From NCBI RefSeq assembly GCF_004366815.1, contig NZ_SORI01000011.1:1-64000 (forward strand): a stretch of DNA of 64,000 nucleotides, given 5' to 3'. The first letter of the stretch is position 1, and each line of letters opens with the position of its first letter. This stretch comes from Aminivibrio pyruvatiphilus (lineage in GTDB: Bacteria; Synergistota; Synergistia; Synergistales; Aminobacteriaceae). The notes under the pieces are model-generated. The model did no database searches, had not been told where the DNA came from, and saw only the letters and a list, made by a program, of their open reading frames with translations. The translations under genes were made by a program, and so were the position numbers. Below are positions 49,045 to 59,074 of this stretch, one piece after another.

Positions 49045-51189
49045 CTACTTGCTGCCTTCGTTCTGCCTGCAGATTGCCGGCAGCTCTTTGAGTTCCTTCA
49101 GGGCGGATTCGAAATGGTGCCACTCCATGAGGAGCTCCCCGTCTCCTCCCGTTTTCAGGTGGTCTCTCACGGCGAGCATGGCCGCTTTCCTGCAGACGAA
49201 GGCGATGTCGCCTCCCGTTCTGCCGTCGGTAAGCCGGGCCAGGGTAGCGATGCGGACCTCGGAAGACAGTGGTTTTTTCCGCAGGTGTATTTCAAAGATT
49301 TTCTCCCTGGCCTGGGCATCAGGGCGGGGAAGTTCGAGAATCAGATCGAACCGTCCGCCTGAAAGAAGAGAGGGGTCCACAAGGTCAAGGCGGTTTGTCG
49401 TCGCCAGGATCACTACCCCCTTGAGCTCCTCGATGCCGCTCATTTCCGCGAGAAACTGGCTGATCACCCGCTCTGTGAAGCTCGCCCCGCTGCCGCTTTC
49501 CTTTCCCCGCACCGGCACCAGGGACTCGATCTCGTCAAAATACAGGATGGAGGGCGAAGCCTGTTTTGCGGTCCTGAAAACGTCCCGGATGGCCCGTTCG
49601 CTTTCTCCCACGTATTTTGACATGAGGGAGGGGCCCTTCACGGAAATGAAATTTACTCCGCTCTCCCGGGCCAGGGCTTTCGCCAGAAGGGTTTTTCCCG
49701 TTCCGGAGGCCCCGTGGAGCATGATTCCCTTGGGCGGCGTGATGTCGAACTTCTCGAAAATATCGCCGTGCTGGAGAGGCCACTGGACCGCGTCACGAAG
49801 CTCTTCCTTGATCTCCTCCAGCCCTCCGATATCCCTCCATGTGACATCGGGAACCTCCACGAAGACTTCCCGTATGGCCGAGGGTTCCACTTCCTTGAAG
49901 GCCTCGAGAAAATGGTCCATGCGGACGTCCATGGCAAGAAGGCGGTCGTAGGGAATGTCCTCCATCTCCATGTCGATCTCCGGAAGCAGTTCCCTGAGGC
50001 TTGCCATGGCGGCCTCCTTTGCCAGGGCTTCCAGGTCGGCTCCCACGTAGCCGTGGGTCATTTCAGCCACTTTCCTGAGGTCCACGTCCGCCGCCAGGGG
50101 CATTCCCCTGGTGTGGATGGTCAGGATTTCGTGCCTTCCCTTCCTGTCGGGAATGGGAATGGAAATTTCCCGGTCGAACCGTCCGGGCCTGCGGAGCGCA
50201 GGGTCGAGCGTGTTGGGAATATTCGTCGCCCCGATGACCACGATCTGTCCTCTTGACTCCAGCCCGTCCATCAGGGCCAGGAGCTGTGCCACAACCCGCC
50301 GTTCCACCTGCTTCTCTCCGCCCATATCCTCCCGCTTGGGGGCGATGGCGTCGATCTCGTCGATGAATATGATGGAGGGAGCATGGGCCTGGGCATCCTC
50401 GAAGACGTTCCGCAGTCTCTCTTCGCTCTCGCCGTAGAATTTCCCGATGACCTCCGGTCCCGAAATGTGGGTGAAGTAAACATCGGTCTCGGCAGCCACA
50501 GCCCTGGCGATCACAGTCTTTCCCGTTCCCGGAGGGCCGTAGAGAAGGACGCCTTTGGGAGGCTGAACGCCGAGGCGGTCAAAGACCAGAGGAAACCGGA
50601 GGGGGAGCTCGATCATCTCCCTGATGCGCTGGATCTGGGAACCGAGGCCGCCGATGTCCTCGTAGGAAATCCTGGCCTTCTTCTCCATTTCCGGCTGCTT
50701 TTCCACGTTCACGTAGGTGGACTTGCTGATGATGACCGTTCCGTCGGGAGTCGTGTCCATGACCCTGAAGTCGCAGATTCTCGTGCCGAAGAGGTTTGTC
50801 CGCACCCGGTCGTCCTTCCTGACGGCCATTCCCTCGAGCAGGGACCGGATATACACAGCGTCCCGCTCTTTTTCCAGAAGGGCGGTGGACGTGAGCGGCC
50901 GGAGGGTGATGCTTCCCGCGAAATGGTGATCGGCCTTCCTGACGGTGACCTTGTCGTCGATTCCTGCCTGGGCGTTGTCCCTGATGATGCCGTCGATCTG
51001 GAGGAATCCCCGCCCCCCTCCCTCGGACATCTCGGAATCGCACGAAAGAAGCCGTGCCGCAGTGACTTTCTTCCCTTCTATTTCGATGATCTGCCCTTCA
51101 GACAGCCCCAGCTCGCGAATATCCTCCGGCGCCATCCGGGCGATGCACCGGCCTACGTCTTTCGGCATGGCTTCCTTGACTTTGAGCAT
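49045..51189 (-). CDS. CDC48/VAT-type AAA+ ATPase
   Basis: A 714-aa protein of the CDC48/p97/VAT family. An N-domain (about 1-175, double-psi barrel type, KEAMPKDVGRCIARMAPEDI at the start) is followed by D1 with Walker A GPPGTGKT (about 218-225), IIFIDEIDAIAPKR and ALRRPGRFDRE, and D2 with HGASGTGKT (about 495), LYFDEIESLVP and a second-region-of-homology SLLSGGRFD (about 608). It would unfold proteins with ATP. In D2 the first of the paired arginines usual in LRPGR is replaced by Ser. Such genes are universal in archaea and scattered in bacteria. The ATG at 51189 has a weak GGGAATG upstream. Confidence 0.93.
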   Translation of the reverse strand: MLKVKEAMPKDVGRCIARMAPEDIRELGLSEGQIIEIEGKKVTAARLLSCDSEMSEGGGRGFLQIDGIIRDNAQAGIDDKVTVRKADHHFAGSITLRPLTSTALLEKERDAVYIRSLLEGMAVRKDDRVRTNLFGTRICDFRVMDTTPDGTVIISKSTYVNVEKQPEMEKKARISYEDIGGLGSQIQRIREMIELPLRFPLVFDRLGVQPPKGVLLYGPPGTGKTVIARAVAAETDVYFTHISGPEVIGKFYGESEERLRNVFEDAQAHAPSIIFIDEIDAIAPKREDMGGEKQVERRVVAQLLALMDGLESRGQIVVIGATNIPNTLDPALRRPGRFDREISIPIPDRKGRHEILTIHTRGMPLAADVDLRKVAEMTHGYVGADLEALAKEAAMASLRELLPEIDMEMEDIPYDRLLAMDVRMDHFLEAFKEVEPSAIREVFVEVPDVTWRDIGGLEEIKEELRDAVQWPLQHGDIFEKFDITPPKGIMLHGASGTGKTLLAKALARESGVNFISVKGPSLMSKYVGESERAIRDVFRTAKQASPSILYFDEIESLVPVRGKESGSGASFTERVISQFLAEMSGIEELKGVVILATTNRLDLVDPSLLSGGRFDLILELPRPDAQAREKIFEIHLRKKPLSSEVRIATLARLTDGRTGGDIAFVCRKAAMLAVRDHLKTGGDGELLMEWHHFESALKELKELPAICRQNEGSK

Positions 51190-53887: not shown

Positions 53888-54943
53888 ATGACAATACGGG
53901 GTGATGGCGTGGAAGAGCAGCGGCTGAGCAAGACCGGAGAAATCCGGCGGATGGCCAAGGACGACCGTTTCAAGGTTCTCGGGGTTGTGTCGAGAGCCTC
54001 CGTGAGAAAGGACAAGAACGGGAAGAATTACTGGGATATCGCCCTTATGGATGACGAAGGCATCATCGAAGGAAAAATCTGGGGAAATTCCAGGTGGTGG
54101 GACAAGAGCGGCGACGGGCAGGTCGAGGTGCAGGACCCTGCCGAATCGTCAGTTTTCGGTGAGCTTGTGGGCAAAACCCTGGGATTGGCGGGTCAGGTCA
54201 CCGAATTCAAAGGACAGCTCCAGTACAATTTCAACGCGGTGTATTTCCTGAACCAGGAGAAATTTCCTCCCCACCAGTTTGTACAGCGTTCTCCCATCGA
54301 CCAGGACACCCTGGAAAAGGAGTTTTTCGACCTCCTGGGGAGCTGCGGCGGACAGGTGGAGGCTTTTCTCCGTTACGTCTTCTTCGAGAGAAAACTCTGG
54401 GACCGGTTCAAGGACTGGCCGGCAGCGGTGGCCCACCACCATGCCTACGTAGGTGGATTGCTGGAGCACACCATTGCCGTGGCGAGGACGGCAAGATCCC
54501 TGGCGGGGACCTACTCCGAATCGGGGTATGAAATCAGTGTCCCAGTCGCTGTGGCGGGGGCCCTGCTGCACGATCTCGGAAAGATGGATTCCTACAGACT
54601 CGTTCCTGCTCCCGAAATGACGGTGGTCGGCACGGTCATAGACCATATTGTCCTGGGATACAGCACCTTCGCCGCCCTTGCCAGGGATTTCGGCCTGGAG
54701 GAACGGCTTTTTCTCGCCATAGGCCATATTCTGGTGAGCCATCATGGATGCCGGGAATTCGGATCCCCCGTTCTGCCCGCCACCCCAGAGGCCATGGCGG
54801 TGAGTGCGGCCGACGAGCTCGACTTCAGGCTTTTCTGCTGGAAAAATTCTGTGGAGAAAATGGAGGACGGCAAGGAAATTACGGATTACAACGTTTCAGC
54901 CCAGAGGCGTTTCTGGAAATGGGAGCAGGGGAATGGCGCATAA
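53888..54943 (+). CDS. YhaM-like 3'-5' exoribonuclease (OB-fold plus HD domain)
   Basis: A 351-aa protein with an N-terminal OB-fold (about residues 20-125, VSRASVRKDKNGKNYWDIAL) and an HD hydrolase domain (about 165-320). HHAYVGGLLEHT and LLHDLGKMDSY (His228, Asp229) supply metal ligands. The layout matches YhaM/CBF1-type exoribonucleases that trim RNA. The ATG at 53888 is used here, but a GTG at 53909 with GGGGTGAT ahead is equally possible. It overlaps the next gene by 11 nt, so they form one transcript with the mutase gene. Confidence 0.85.
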   Translation: MTIRGDGVEEQRLSKTGEIRRMAKDDRFKVLGVVSRASVRKDKNGKNYWDIALMDDEGIIEGKIWGNSRWWDKSGDGQVEVQDPAESSVFGELVGKTLGLAGQVTEFKGQLQYNFNAVYFLNQEKFPPHQFVQRSPIDQDTLEKEFFDLLGSCGGQVEAFLRYVFFERKLWDRFKDWPAAVAHHHAYVGGLLEHTIAVARTARSLAGTYSESGYEISVPVAVAGALLHDLGKMDSYRLVPAPEMTVVGTVIDHIVLGYSTFAALARDFGLEERLFLAIGHILVSHHGCREFGSPVLPATPEAMAVSAADELDFRLFCWKNSVEKMEDGKEITDYNVSAQRRFWKWEQGNGA

Positions 54944-55859
54944 GCTGACGGTTTCCTCATCCGACGACGGACGCAGGTTTGACAAGGTGCTCCGGTCCAT
55001 CTGGCCCGGCCTTCCCCTGAGCGTGGTCATGAAGGGAATCCGGACAGGCTCCGTGAGGCTTGACGGAAAAAAGGCCTCCTGCGATGTCCGGGTTTCTGCC
55101 GGCCAGGAGATTTACGTCCCGTGGGAGAGCCCCAGGGAAGCGGCGGGGGAGTACCGCTACCGCCGGACTTTGTCCGTTCTCTTCCGTGACAGCCGGATCT
55201 GGGCTGTGAACAAGCCTGAAAACCTTCTTGTCCAGCCCGACAGGAAGGACCAGGACAACGTCCTTGACCGGGTGAAGTACATGCTGCAGCTCGAGGGGCT
55301 CGAAGAAAGGGCCTATGCCGTGCACCGCCTCGACAGGAACACCACGGGCGTTCTGCTCGTTGCCCTTTCGGGGGTCAGTCTCCGGATACTTCAGGACGCC
55401 TTCCGGGAGAGAAAAATCCGCAAAACCTACCTCGCGGTGGTGGCGGGACTCCCGCCGAAGGAAGGAGAGATCCGGGCGCCGCTCCTGAAGGAGCCTTCGT
55501 CGAACACAGTCCGGGTCGATCCTGCCGGCAAAGAAGCCCTGACCAGGTTCAGGCTTCTCGGCGGCGGAAACGACGCCTCCCTCGTGGAGATCGACCTCGT
55601 GACGGGACGGTCCCACCAGGCCAGGGTCCACATGGCGTCCATAGGATGCCCTGTCCTCGGCGACATCCGGTACGGAAGCGAGGAAACCAACGGAAAATGG
55701 AGAAAGCGGGGAATCCGGCGCCCCCTGCTTCACAGCTACAGGATCCTTTTTGGGGAACTCGGGGGAGAAATTGAGGATTTGTCCGGCATGAGGATTACCG
55801 CTCCTCTTCCCGCCGACATGGAGTCCCTTTGCGCCTCCCGGGGATGGCGGCTTCCGTAA
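54933..55859 (+). CDS. RluA family pseudouridine synthase
   Basis: A 308-aa enzyme isomerising uridine to pseudouridine in rRNA (or tRNA). An S4-like N-terminal domain (GRRFDKVLRSIWPGLPLSVV) precedes the catalytic domain, which contains AVHRLDRNTTGVLL with the catalytic Asp near residue 134 and VTGRSHQARVHMASIG. RluC/RluD-type target sites cannot be distinguished by eye. The start at 54933 has GGGAGCAGGGG before it and lies inside the end of the YhaM-like gene; the longer frame from 54804 is spurious. The candidate selenoprotein gene follows 44 bp after its stop. Confidence 0.92.
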   Translation: MAHKLTVSSSDDGRRFDKVLRSIWPGLPLSVVMKGIRTGSVRLDGKKASCDVRVSAGQEIYVPWESPREAAGEYRYRRTLSVLFRDSRIWAVNKPENLLVQPDRKDQDNVLDRVKYMLQLEGLEERAYAVHRLDRNTTGVLLVALSGVSLRILQDAFRERKIRKTYLAVVAGLPPKEGEIRAPLLKEPSSNTVRVDPAGKEALTRFRLLGGGNDASLVEIDLVTGRSHQARVHMASIGCPVLGDIRYGSEETNGKWRKRGIRRPLLHSYRILFGELGGEIEDLSGMRITAPLPADMESLCASRGWRLP

Positions 55860-55903
55860 TGGAAGAGGAGTGACGGACTGAAGGTCCGGAGAGGAGGATA
55901 ATG

Positions 55904-56230
55904 ATGGAACTGAAAATCGTCGCGGAGCGGAGCATTATGGACAAGCTCCGGAAAAAAGGCGAAGCGTTTGTCATCCAGCGGACCCTCGGGATCGGGTGAG
56001 GAGCCAGGAGAGTCTTCAGAGTTGAAGACGGCGTTCCTCCGTCGGAGGGCGAATACCGCAGAATAGAGCACGAAGGAGTTTCCCTCTGGGTTCCCTCCTT
56101 TATGAAATTCAGAAATGACACTGTCGAGGTAGTCCAGCGGGGCTTTCTGTGGTCGGCCTATCTCATGGTTACCAGCGTAGAAGCGGGCAGCGGCTCTTTT
56201 TGCGCTGATTGTTCCGATTGCGGAGAATGA
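55904..56230 (+). CDS. Candidate HesB/IscA-like selenoprotein (in-frame TGA)
   Basis: A 109-codon frame from an ATG at 55904 (AGGAGG 6 nt upstream; ATG 55901 also in frame) to TGA 56228, broken only by TGA at 55997-55999. Reading that TGA as selenocysteine gives a 108-aa protein with Sec at residue 32 in LGIGUGARRVFRVEDG and three Cys at 100, 103 and 106 in FCADCSDCGE near the end. E. coli IscA is 107 aa with Cys at 35, 99 and 101, so length and positions fit the HesB-like fold, and HesB-like selenoproteins are known in bacteria. The stretch after the TGA keeps a sensible composition. A SECIS-like hairpin follows the TGA. A stop-truncated 31-aa ORF is the alternative. It probably shares a transcript with the RluA gene. 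Confidence 0.7.
56000..56040 (+). promoter_or_regulatory. SECIS-like hairpin in the selenoprotein candidate
   Basis: Directly after TGA 55997-55999 the RNA can form GUCUUC (56012-56017) / GAAGAC (56024-56029) with a six-base AGAGUU loop, 18 nt after the TGA, plus outer pairing GGAG / CUCC. A G lies in the first two loop bases, as bacterial SECIS elements usually have. Confidence 0.5.
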
Positions 56231-56287
56231 ATTGTAAGATTTTGTTCTAGGTATTTGGAACTATTTTGACCTATTTCTTCTCTTTTC

Positions 56288-56317
56288 TTGGTGCTTTAAG
56301 GAAAAAAATGTTATGAT
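56288..56317 (+). promoter_or_regulatory. Putative promoter of the first glutamate dehydrogenase gene
   Basis: TTGGTG (56288-56293), 18-bp spacer, TATGAT (56312-56317), about 50 bp before the ATG, in an AT-rich stretch. Confidence 0.5.
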
Positions 56318-56367
56318 ATGAACGGTCTCAAACGGCGGAAGCCGTAAAAATACAGGAGGTGTGTTTA

Positions 56368-57645
56368 ATGGCCGTAGTGAAGCGTACTTCCTCAAACGTT
56401 CTCCTTGACACAGCACTCAAGAATTTCTATGCAGCAGCTGAGGAGATGGGGCTCGAAGAGGGACTCATCGACATCCTCAGCCACTCCGAGCGCCGGACAT
56501 GCGTTTCCATCCCCGTGGAAATGGATGACGGTACGGTAAGGGTTTTTGACGGGTACAGGGTTCTCCATTCTTCCGCCATCGGACCGGGCAAGGGCGGAGT
56601 CCGTTTCCACCCCGAAGTGAATCTTGATGAATGCGAAGCCCTCGGCATGATGATGACCTGGAAATGCTCCCTCGCCGGCATTCCCTACGGCGGAGGCAAG
56701 GGTGGCGTTTCCTGCGAACCCCTCGAGCTTTCCAAGAAGGAAAAAGAGCGGATCGCCAGAACCTGGGCAGCCCGGATGGCTCCCGTTATCGGAGCATGGA
56801 CCGACGTCCCCGCCCCTGACGTGAACACCGGCGGACCGGAAATGGTCTGGTTCATGGACACCATCAGCAAGATGAAGAACCAGCTCGAGCCTGCAATTTT
56901 CACCGGAAAGCCCATTCCCCTGTGGGGGTCCAAGGGCCGCACGGCTGCGACGGGCTACGGCGTCGCCACCTGCGCTCTCGAGCTTCTGAAGAATCTGGGC
57001 AAGTCTCCCGAGGGCGCCACCGTCGCCATCCAGGGCTTCGGCAACGTGGGCACCTATGCCGCCCTTACAATGATCGATGCCGGATCCAAGGTCATCGGCA
57101 TCAGCGACATCACCGGAACTTATTACGCCCCCAACGGCCTTGATATCAAAAAAGCATTCGACCACGTGAGCAACCATCCGAAGCGCCTTCTTGAAGGCTT
57201 TACCTGCGACGGCTGCCAGAAGCTCGACCTTCCCGAAGTGCTTTTCCTGGACTGTGACATCCTTATCCCCGCCGCCCTTGAGGGCGTCATCAACGGGAAG
57301 AATGCCGACAAGGTCAAGGCGAAGTACATCGTCGAAGCAGCCAATGGCCCCATCACTCCTGAAGGCGACGCCATTCTCGATGACAAGGGAATTCTCGTCG
57401 TTCCCGACTTCCTGGCCAATTCCGGCGGAGTCATCGGCTCCTACTTCGAGTGGGCCCAGGACCTCGGCGGATTCTTCTGGTCGGAGGAGGAGTACAACGA
57501 CCGGCTGATCCGCATCATGAAGGACAACTTCCAGCGGGTGTGGACGTACGCGAAGGACAAGAACGTCAAGATGCGCCGGGCAGCCTTCATGGCCGCTATC
57601 CAGAGAGTGGCCGATGCGGTGCGGATGAGAGGCGTGTTCCTGTAA
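56368..57645 (+). CDS. gdhA: Glutamate dehydrogenase (Glu/Leu/Phe/Val family), paralogue 1
   Basis: A 425-aa NAD(P)-dependent dehydrogenase that oxidatively deaminates glutamate (possibly other amino acids) to the 2-oxo acid and ammonia. GPGKGGVRFHPEV, IPYGGGKGGVS (substrate Lys), the VPAPDVNTGGPEMVWFMD stretch and QGFGNVGTYAAL (Rossmann) are family signatures. AGGAGG stands 11 nt before the ATG at 56368. Length is normal for the hexameric bacterial or archaeal type. A second gene of the family follows 187 bp downstream, beyond a terminator. Confidence 0.93.
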   Translation: MAVVKRTSSNVLLDTALKNFYAAAEEMGLEEGLIDILSHSERRTCVSIPVEMDDGTVRVFDGYRVLHSSAIGPGKGGVRFHPEVNLDECEALGMMMTWKCSLAGIPYGGGKGGVSCEPLELSKKEKERIARTWAARMAPVIGAWTDVPAPDVNTGGPEMVWFMDTISKMKNQLEPAIFTGKPIPLWGSKGRTAATGYGVATCALELLKNLGKSPEGATVAIQGFGNVGTYAALTMIDAGSKVIGISDITGTYYAPNGLDIKKAFDHVSNHPKRLLEGFTCDGCQKLDLPEVLFLDCDILIPAALEGVINGKNADKVKAKYIVEAANGPITPEGDAILDDKGILVVPDFLANSGGVIGSYFEWAQDLGGFFWSEEEYNDRLIRIMKDNFQRVWTYAKDKNVKMRRAAFMAAIQRVADAVRMRGVFL

Positions 57646-57666
57646 AAGAAAAGAGCTTATTGTTTC

Positions 57667-57698
57667 GGGGCCGGAGAAATCCGGCCTCTTTTTTTGTT
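57667..57698 (+). terminator. Terminator between the two dehydrogenase genes
   Basis: A stem GGCCGGA / TCCGGCC with a GAAA loop and a T-rich tail (TCTTTTTTT), about 25 bp after the first stop codon. Confidence 0.88.
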
Positions 57699-57832
57699 CC
57701 GTTAATTAGACAGAAAAGACAAATAAGTGATCAAAACATGCGCCGTGTGTGTTAGAATTTTCAAAGAAAGAAGTGGCGAAACGGTCTCTGTAATCCATGG
57801 GAAAGCAGATCTACGAGGAGGTGGAGGAACGG

Positions 57833-59074
57833 ATGAACCCGAGAGAGATGTACCTGCAGCAGCTTGAACAGGCGGTGCCTTACTTGACGGTGGAGCCCGA
57901 ATACCTTGAGATGCTGAGGTATCCGAAAGAGGTTCTCGAGCTTTCCATTCCCGTGCGGCTCGACGGAGGAGGAGTGAAGATTTTCAGCGCGTGGCGGAGC
58001 CATCACAACAACGCTCTCGGCCCCTACAAGGGAGGAGTCCGGTACCACGTGGAAGTAAGCCGGGATGAAGTTGTCGCTCTTTCCTCGTGGATGACTATCA
58101 AGTGTGCCATTGCCGGCCTCCCCTACGGCGGAGGCAAGGGGGGCGTCTCGGTGGATGTCCGCGAGCTGTCGCGGAACGAACTCGAGAATCTCAGCAGGGC
58201 CTATGCTTTCGGCATCTCCCGGTTCGTCGGGACGGATTATGACATTCCCGCTCCCGATGTGTACACAAATCCCCAGGTAATGGCCTGGTTTCTCGATACC
58301 TTCGAGAAAGTGAAGGGCTGGAGCGAGCCGTCGGCTTTTACGGGAAAACCGGTAGTCATGGGAGGATCTCTCGGCAGATCCGATTCGACGGGAAAGGGAG
58401 GCATCTTCATCCTCAGGGAAGCCCTGAAAGCCATGGGACTCCTGGGCAAACCCCTCACCGTGGGAATACAGGGATACGGAAACGTGGGCTCCCGGGCCCA
58501 CCGGTTCGTCGAGGAAGATCTCGGCCTCACCGTAGTAGCGGTCTGTGATTCCGGTGCGGCTGTTTACAATCCGGCGGGACTGAAATACTCGGAAGTGGGG
58601 AAATTCAAGGAAGAAACCCGTTCCCTGAAAGGTTTTTCCGGCGGGGAAGAATTTTTCCCTGATCTGATTTTCGAGAAGGAAATGGACATCCTCATCCTGG
58701 CTGCCCTCGGCGGTGCAATCGACGAAAAGAATGCCGGAGCTGTAAGGGCAAAGGTGATTCTCGAGCTGGCCAACGGCCCCATAACGCCTGAAGGCGAAGC
58801 CATCCTTGCCGACAGGGGAGTGCTTATCGTCCCGGATGTCCTTGCCAACGCCGGGGGAGTAATCGTCAGCTGTTTCGAATGGATCCAGGGACGTTCAGGT
58901 GACATGTGGTCTGAAGAATATGTGTTTTCAAAGCTGGACGAGAGAATGGTCCGGTCCTTCAGGGAAATCTGGTCTATCCGGCAGGACAGGAAGATCAGTT
59001 TCCGCCAGGCCGCCTATGTCAAGGCGGTCAGCAGAATTGTGGATGCCATGAGGTTCCGGGGGATTTGGCCGTAG
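57833..59074 (+). CDS. Glutamate dehydrogenase family, paralogue 2
   Basis: A 413-aa Glu/Leu/Phe/Val dehydrogenase. GPYKGGVRYHVEVSRDEV, LPYGGGKGGVSVD, the VYTNPQVMAWFLDTFEK stretch and QGYGNVGSRAH are present, and ARG/GDH-type ANGPITPEGEAIL is shared with the neighbour. It is clearly related to paralogue 1 but quite diverged, so a different substrate or cofactor preference is plausible. The start at 57833 (GGAGG 5 nt upstream, protein begins NPREMYLQQLEQA) matches the family better than the frame opening at 57797. Confidence 0.9.
   Translation: MNPREMYLQQLEQAVPYLTVEPEYLEMLRYPKEVLELSIPVRLDGGGVKIFSAWRSHHNNALGPYKGGVRYHVEVSRDEVVALSSWMTIKCAIAGLPYGGGKGGVSVDVRELSRNELENLSRAYAFGISRFVGTDYDIPAPDVYTNPQVMAWFLDTFEKVKGWSEPSAFTGKPVVMGGSLGRSDSTGKGGIFILREALKAMGLLGKPLTVGIQGYGNVGSRAHRFVEEDLGLTVVAVCDSGAAVYNPAGLKYSEVGKFKEETRSLKGFSGGEEFFPDLIFEKEMDILILAALGGAIDEKNAGAVRAKVILELANGPITPEGEAILADRGVLIVPDVLANAGGVIVSCFEWIQGRSGDMWSEEYVFSKLDERMVRSFREIWSIRQDRKISFRQAAYVKAVSRIVDAMRFRGIWP

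Follow-up and report, generated by a model that had tools for sequence, protein, structure and literature searches.

The stretch of DNA analyzed here (referred to as the window; 64,000 nt) is contig C11 of the Aminivibrio pyruvatiphilus genome that we examined as a whole (3.35 Mb, 98.9% complete). Toward one end of the window, three genes follow each other on the forward strand, the middle one of which is, on the comparative evidence presented below, almost certainly a real selenoprotein gene. The features of this locus are as follows:

54933..55859, + strand: gene for an RluA-type RNA pseudouridine synthase (PF00849, E = 4e-35), which ends 44 nt before the start of the selenoprotein gene
55892..55897, + strand: ribosome-binding site AGGAGG, read from the sequence, 6 nt 5' of the ATG at 55904
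55904..56230, + strand: predicted selenoprotein gene, 108 residues with Sec32, terminal TGA at 56228-56230
55996..56040, + strand: SECIS-like element, identified by fold energy, family covariation and a synonymous-recoding control; upper stem 56012-56018 paired with 56023-56029 around loop GAGU (56019-56022), lower stem 55998-56004 paired with 56033-56039 and reaching into the UGA
55997..55999, + strand: in-frame TGA at codon 32, predicted to be read as selenocysteine (TGA in 65/67 distinct homologues, Cys codon in 2/67)
56201..56221, + strand: C-terminal CADCSDC (Cys100, Cys103, Cys106), proposed to supply partner thiols for Sec32 given the near-exclusion of tail Cys and UC in the family
56368..57645, + strand: downstream glutamate dehydrogenase-family gene (PF00208, PF02812)

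The product of frame 55904-56230 reads MELKIVAERSIMDKLRKKGEAFVIQRTLGIG-TGA-GARRVFRVEDG...FCADCSDCGE-TGA, and an alternative ATG is possible at 55901. The local context of the putative selenocysteine is GIGU(32)GARR, i.e., a GxGU motif. A first-pass annotation, made from the sequence alone, had described a frame preceded by a strong ribosome-binding site, running through one TGA at codon 32 and stopping at a second TGA; these coordinates were reproduced, and the AGGAGG ahead of the ATG bears out the ribosome-binding site. The same annotation held that a standard gene caller would miss the gene. As our six-frame scan listed no open reading frame of at least 50 amino acids in the frame of 55904-56230, an ordinary gene caller would indeed overlook it.

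The genome encodes the components expected for selenocysteine insertion, for which the first-pass annotation had proposed to look, i.e., tRNA-Sec, SelA, SelB and SelD. A tRNA-Sec gene on contig C8 scored 74.5 bits with RF01852, which exceeds the cut-off, and carries the anticodon TCA (ARAGORN); selA and selB adjoin each other on contig C4, while selD, located on contig C18, itself contains an in-frame TGA. In another genome in the comparison (locus L009), a tyrosine-recombinase-like open frame adjoins the tRNA-Sec gene, and this tRNA may thus be an integration site.

A scan of bacterial genomes found four Synergistaceae loci with 57-84% identity to the window protein, with the TGA at the identical codon in all four. 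A profile search of 188 Synergistota genomes yielded matches in 54, nearly all of them with one in-frame TGA; searches of plasmids found nothing relevant. After a repeated search, the 67 distinct Synergistota homologues comprised 65 with TGA and two with a Cys codon at the Sec32 column, which was the sole invariant column of the homologue alignment, and the TGA in this column spanned ten taxonomic families. The only members recovered with Cys in place of Sec were the second copy at L053, which adjoins a Sec copy, and L066. The gene for SelA was detected significantly more often in genomes carrying a homologue (48/54) than in the others (85/134; P = 4e-4, Fisher's exact test); of the six homologue-bearing genomes in which selA was not detected some, not all, are clearly incomplete drafts.

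Comparison of the window gene with its homologue at L017 gave dN/dS values of 0.086 for the part preceding the TGA and 0.074 for the part following it, which at the level of sequence indicates protein-coding constraint on both sides of the TGA and agrees with the earlier impression that the codons past the TGA have the composition of a real protein. Under the standard genetic code, translation would terminate at codon 32, and the TGA could then represent a true stop (i.e., a nonsense mutation, a pseudogene or a sequencing error) leaving a 31-residue peptide. Given that ten taxonomic families share the identical TGA and that constraint continues past it, we regard the probability of a true stop as negligible. 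The two outcomes that the first-pass annotation had named as arguing against a selenoprotein, i.e., homologues that end at the TGA and a genome lacking selenocysteine insertion genes, were both contradicted by these data.

A hairpin located directly past the UGA was also investigated. The window element (48 nt) folds at -17.5 kcal/mol (z = -1.87) and contains a hairpin with a 7-bp stem and a 4-nt loop, GAGU, positioned 19 nt from the UGA. The published bSECIS model specifies a loop of 3-9 nt, a stem of 4-16 bp, an energy of at most -7.5 kcal/mol, a G within the first two loop positions and a distance of 16-37 nt from the UGA (PMC13188914). The window element agrees with this model in geometry and in the energy of the whole element; the upper hairpin alone, at -7.0 kcal/mol, falls slightly short of the energy limit. 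Rfam searches at the site found no convincing family, the two matches listed being far below their gathering scores.

To assess covariation, we used 56 relatives, from which the window's own branch and the sister genus were left out, and in which the element aligns without gaps. Changes on both sides were found for 7 of the 9 hairpin pairs, and the covariation score was 0.342, as compared to a mean of 0.204 for shuffled alignments and at most 0.167 when the partners were slid. For example, pair 21-31 is C:G in 25 and U:A in another 25 of 55 sequences, with a silent third codon position tracking the opening base of a codon for Gly or Ser/Asn. When compared to synonymous recodings drawn with the codon usage of the window, the mean best hairpin of the family was considerably more stable (-8.7 vs. 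-3.8 kcal/mol; 0/20000 recodings). The window hairpin alone was not significantly more stable than its synonymous recodings (P = 0.26), and the signal is thus one of the family only; as the sequences are related, neither the covariation counts nor the recoding counts represent independent events. Overall, the sequence comparison indicates covariation of this hairpin throughout the family, including at positions where it required silent codon choices.

These data also bear on whether the UGA might specify a different amino acid, or be decoded by some process distinct from selenocysteine insertion, as the sequence reveals the frame and its conservation but not the inserted residue. We consider such a reading very improbable. 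Cys is the only residue other than UGA that occurs at the Sec32 column, the alternation expected of a bacterial selenoprotein; the selenocysteine genes are present and selD also has an in-frame TGA; TGA additionally serves as the stop of the selenoprotein gene itself; and the geometry of the hairpin agrees with the published bSECIS model (PMC13188914). The proposal of a candidate selenoprotein is therefore strongly supported by the insertion genes, the phylum-wide UGA and the covarying SECIS-like hairpin.

With respect to genomic neighborhood, an RluA-type homologue was found upstream in 48 family loci, and hence in most relatives, mostly at a distance of 22-96 nt and on the same strand, and the RluA-type gene is a probable operon partner of the selenoprotein gene. 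A glutamate dehydrogenase gene was located downstream in about 26 family loci; the arrangement of RluA, selenoprotein and glutamate dehydrogenase genes is an old one. Between the selenoprotein and glutamate dehydrogenase genes of the window lies a conserved, AT-rich non-coding stretch (56231-56330; TATTTGGAACTATTTTGACC), which is common to L017, L018, L019, L020 and L042 despite their differing frames and stop codons and which looks like a promoter or operator. Two glutamate dehydrogenase-family genes follow in succession on the same strand (56368-59074). Elsewhere in the window, positions 49045-51189 encode a double AAA ATPase of the CDC48 type that has CDC48 N domains, here in a bacterium.

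As the first-pass annotation had likened the product, in length and Cys/Sec placement, to HesB/IscA-type iron-sulfur carriers, we compared the window protein to IscA. No Pfam family matched it, including PF01521 (Fe-S_biosyn), and it was therefore rejected as a member of the latter; 11 relatives match Fe-S_biosyn weakly (best E = 2.3e-5). An AlphaFold2 model of the window protein (pLDDT 79, pTM 0.66) was used in a Foldseek search, in which the leading PDB matches were of the IscA/SufA type (probability 0.87-1.00, best E = 3.1e-3), with a TM of only about 0.45. Alignment against IscA homologues with hhalign placed residue 32 on Cys35 (P = 0.0025), at a probability of only 12%. A sequence search against PDB returned a weak BolA-like match (E = 0.48), which was taken as noise. 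Judging from the structural model, the window protein likely has an IscA-like fold, as a remote resemblance rather than as family membership, and the sequence alignment weakly supports placing Sec32 where IscA has Cys35. The part of the earlier interpretation that stands is thus a remote fold relationship, supported by Foldseek and hhalign; membership in a carrier family does not, as neither Pfam nor TIGR01911 matched. Similarly, the proposed correspondence of cysteine placement is weakly supported for Sec32 and lost for the C-terminal residues. The IscA ligand set (Cys35, Cys99, Cys101) is absent as such, since the C-terminal pair is unconserved in the family, and Cys100, Cys103 and Cys106 were rejected as a family-wide equivalent of Cys99 and Cys101 because the pattern varies and one branch is devoid of it.

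The distribution of cysteines among the 65 Sec proteins suggested another role for these residues. Tail Cys without UC was found in 43 proteins, UC without tail Cys in 11, both in one and neither in 10 (P = 4e-6, a value inflated by relatedness, as the counts are not independent events); the number of tail Cys ranged from one to three outside the UC branch, in which they are absent. Among the ten Sec members without a partner Cys, eight carry an export-like, hydrophobic N-terminus, and another one is truncated by its contig end. Overall, eleven distant Sec-containing relatives (L092-L100) show such an N-terminus, and L099 and L100 each represent two tandem copies. The near-exclusion of UC and tail Cys points to a selenol/thiol (selenenylsulfide) pair more than to an invariant Fe-S ligand set; as far as sequence can indicate, it suggests that the partner Cys swaps between the residue adjacent to Sec and the C-terminal tail, in keeping with selenol/thiol redox chemistry.

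We thus propose that the gene, which is probably transcribed together with the RluA-type gene ahead of it, specifies a small selenoprotein with an IscA-like fold, probably cytoplasmic, whose UGA at codon 32 would be decoded by SelB and tRNA-Sec under the guidance of the hairpin directly downstream. The Sec32 selenol may be the active residue and may cycle with a partner thiol, which would be a Cys of the flexible C-terminal tail in the window's branch and, in proteins of the UC branch, the residue directly following Sec; the pair could form and release a selenenylsulfide, or briefly hold a sulfur, selenium or metal species. The explanation as a whole, i.e., a Sec-decoded protein of IscA fold with a redox pair, appears probable to us from the sequence evidence, while for the redox-pair step taken separately the chances fall slightly short of even.

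Alternatively, the window protein might be a true A-type Fe-S carrier replacing IscA/ErpA, with Sec as the first ligand and the C-terminal CxxCxxC as the others. The IscA-like fold, the placement of residue 32 and the three Cys in the window's tail are compatible with such a carrier. Moreover, no match to PF01521 was found in the 188 Synergistota genomes (the same search was positive in 9 of 14 control genomes), yet the window genome has a NifU_N/IscU-type scaffold. However, the UC branch is devoid of the C-terminal Cys, which number one to three elsewhere, eleven relatives carry an export-like N-terminus, and the family is absent from most genomes of the phylum and hence not a general replacement. 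We consider a true carrier unlikely on balance. A-type carriers are also missing from some other lineages, where it is an open question what replaces them (PMC2682760). As PF01521 was not found in the phylum, the window selenoprotein provides a candidate, not a general, answer to this question: it could stand in for A-type carriers, even though most of the phylum is without the family and the ligands are missing from members of the UC branch and from those with an export-like N-terminus. More broadly, it is tempting to speculate that a phylum-wide Sec lineage of IscA fold abandoned Fe-S transfer in favor of selenol redox chemistry, with the resolving Cys having moved and some copies having become extracytoplasmic, in a phylum without detectable A-type carriers; we would regard this scenario as tentative and somewhat doubtful.

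Synergistota are already known as a selenoprotein-rich phylum (PMC5029168), to which the present data add a well-supported branch that current models overlook. The best NCBIfam match of the window protein was NF041239 (Moor_selen_rel), a CC/Se motif family (seleno)protein that is listed as a predicted selenoprotein from Moorella thermoacetica in a 2026 review (PMC13188914). The window protein scored 24.6 bits, below the cut-off of 40, and was thus rejected as a member, and the model remained silent in the window genome (E <= 0.001), as compared to relatives of the protein in 54/188 Synergistota genomes. All 67 Synergistota relatives nonetheless match NF041239 over nearly the whole profile, several exceeding the cut-off (41-50 bits, top 50.2). 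The window protein differs in having Gly, not Cys, after Sec; if the family name is read as Sec/Cys followed by Cys, the window protein (UG) departs from it, and UC occurs in 12/65 relatives. By sequence, we thus interpret the window protein as a divergent branch linked to the little-described and uncharacterized NF041239 selenoprotein family, which connects the IscA fold with a CC/Se family so far unexplained and, as the partner Cys of Sec seems to swap place, offers a testable idea of its chemistry.

Among other known systems, the HesB-like selenoprotein, a family of unclear function that is distantly related to IscA (PMC11097638), resembles the window protein as a Sec-containing remote relative of IscA. 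Its model (TIGR01911, cut-off 66.35 bits) did not match the window protein (E <= 10), which was thus rejected as a member, nor anything else in the window genome, and gave two below-cut-off matches in the phylum, both without a TGA; its motif is UxGP (PMC13188914), as opposed to GxGU in the window protein. A GxGU motif is listed for UXX-star selenoprotein family 2 (NF041211; PMC13188914), although this motif is short and the NF041211 model does not match the window protein at E <= 10. Compared to IscA/SufA/ErpA (PF01521), finally, the window protein shares the predicted strand order, the best fold matches and the alignment of Sec32 with Cys35, whereas the C-terminal CGC is replaced by a variable tail that is absent from some relatives.
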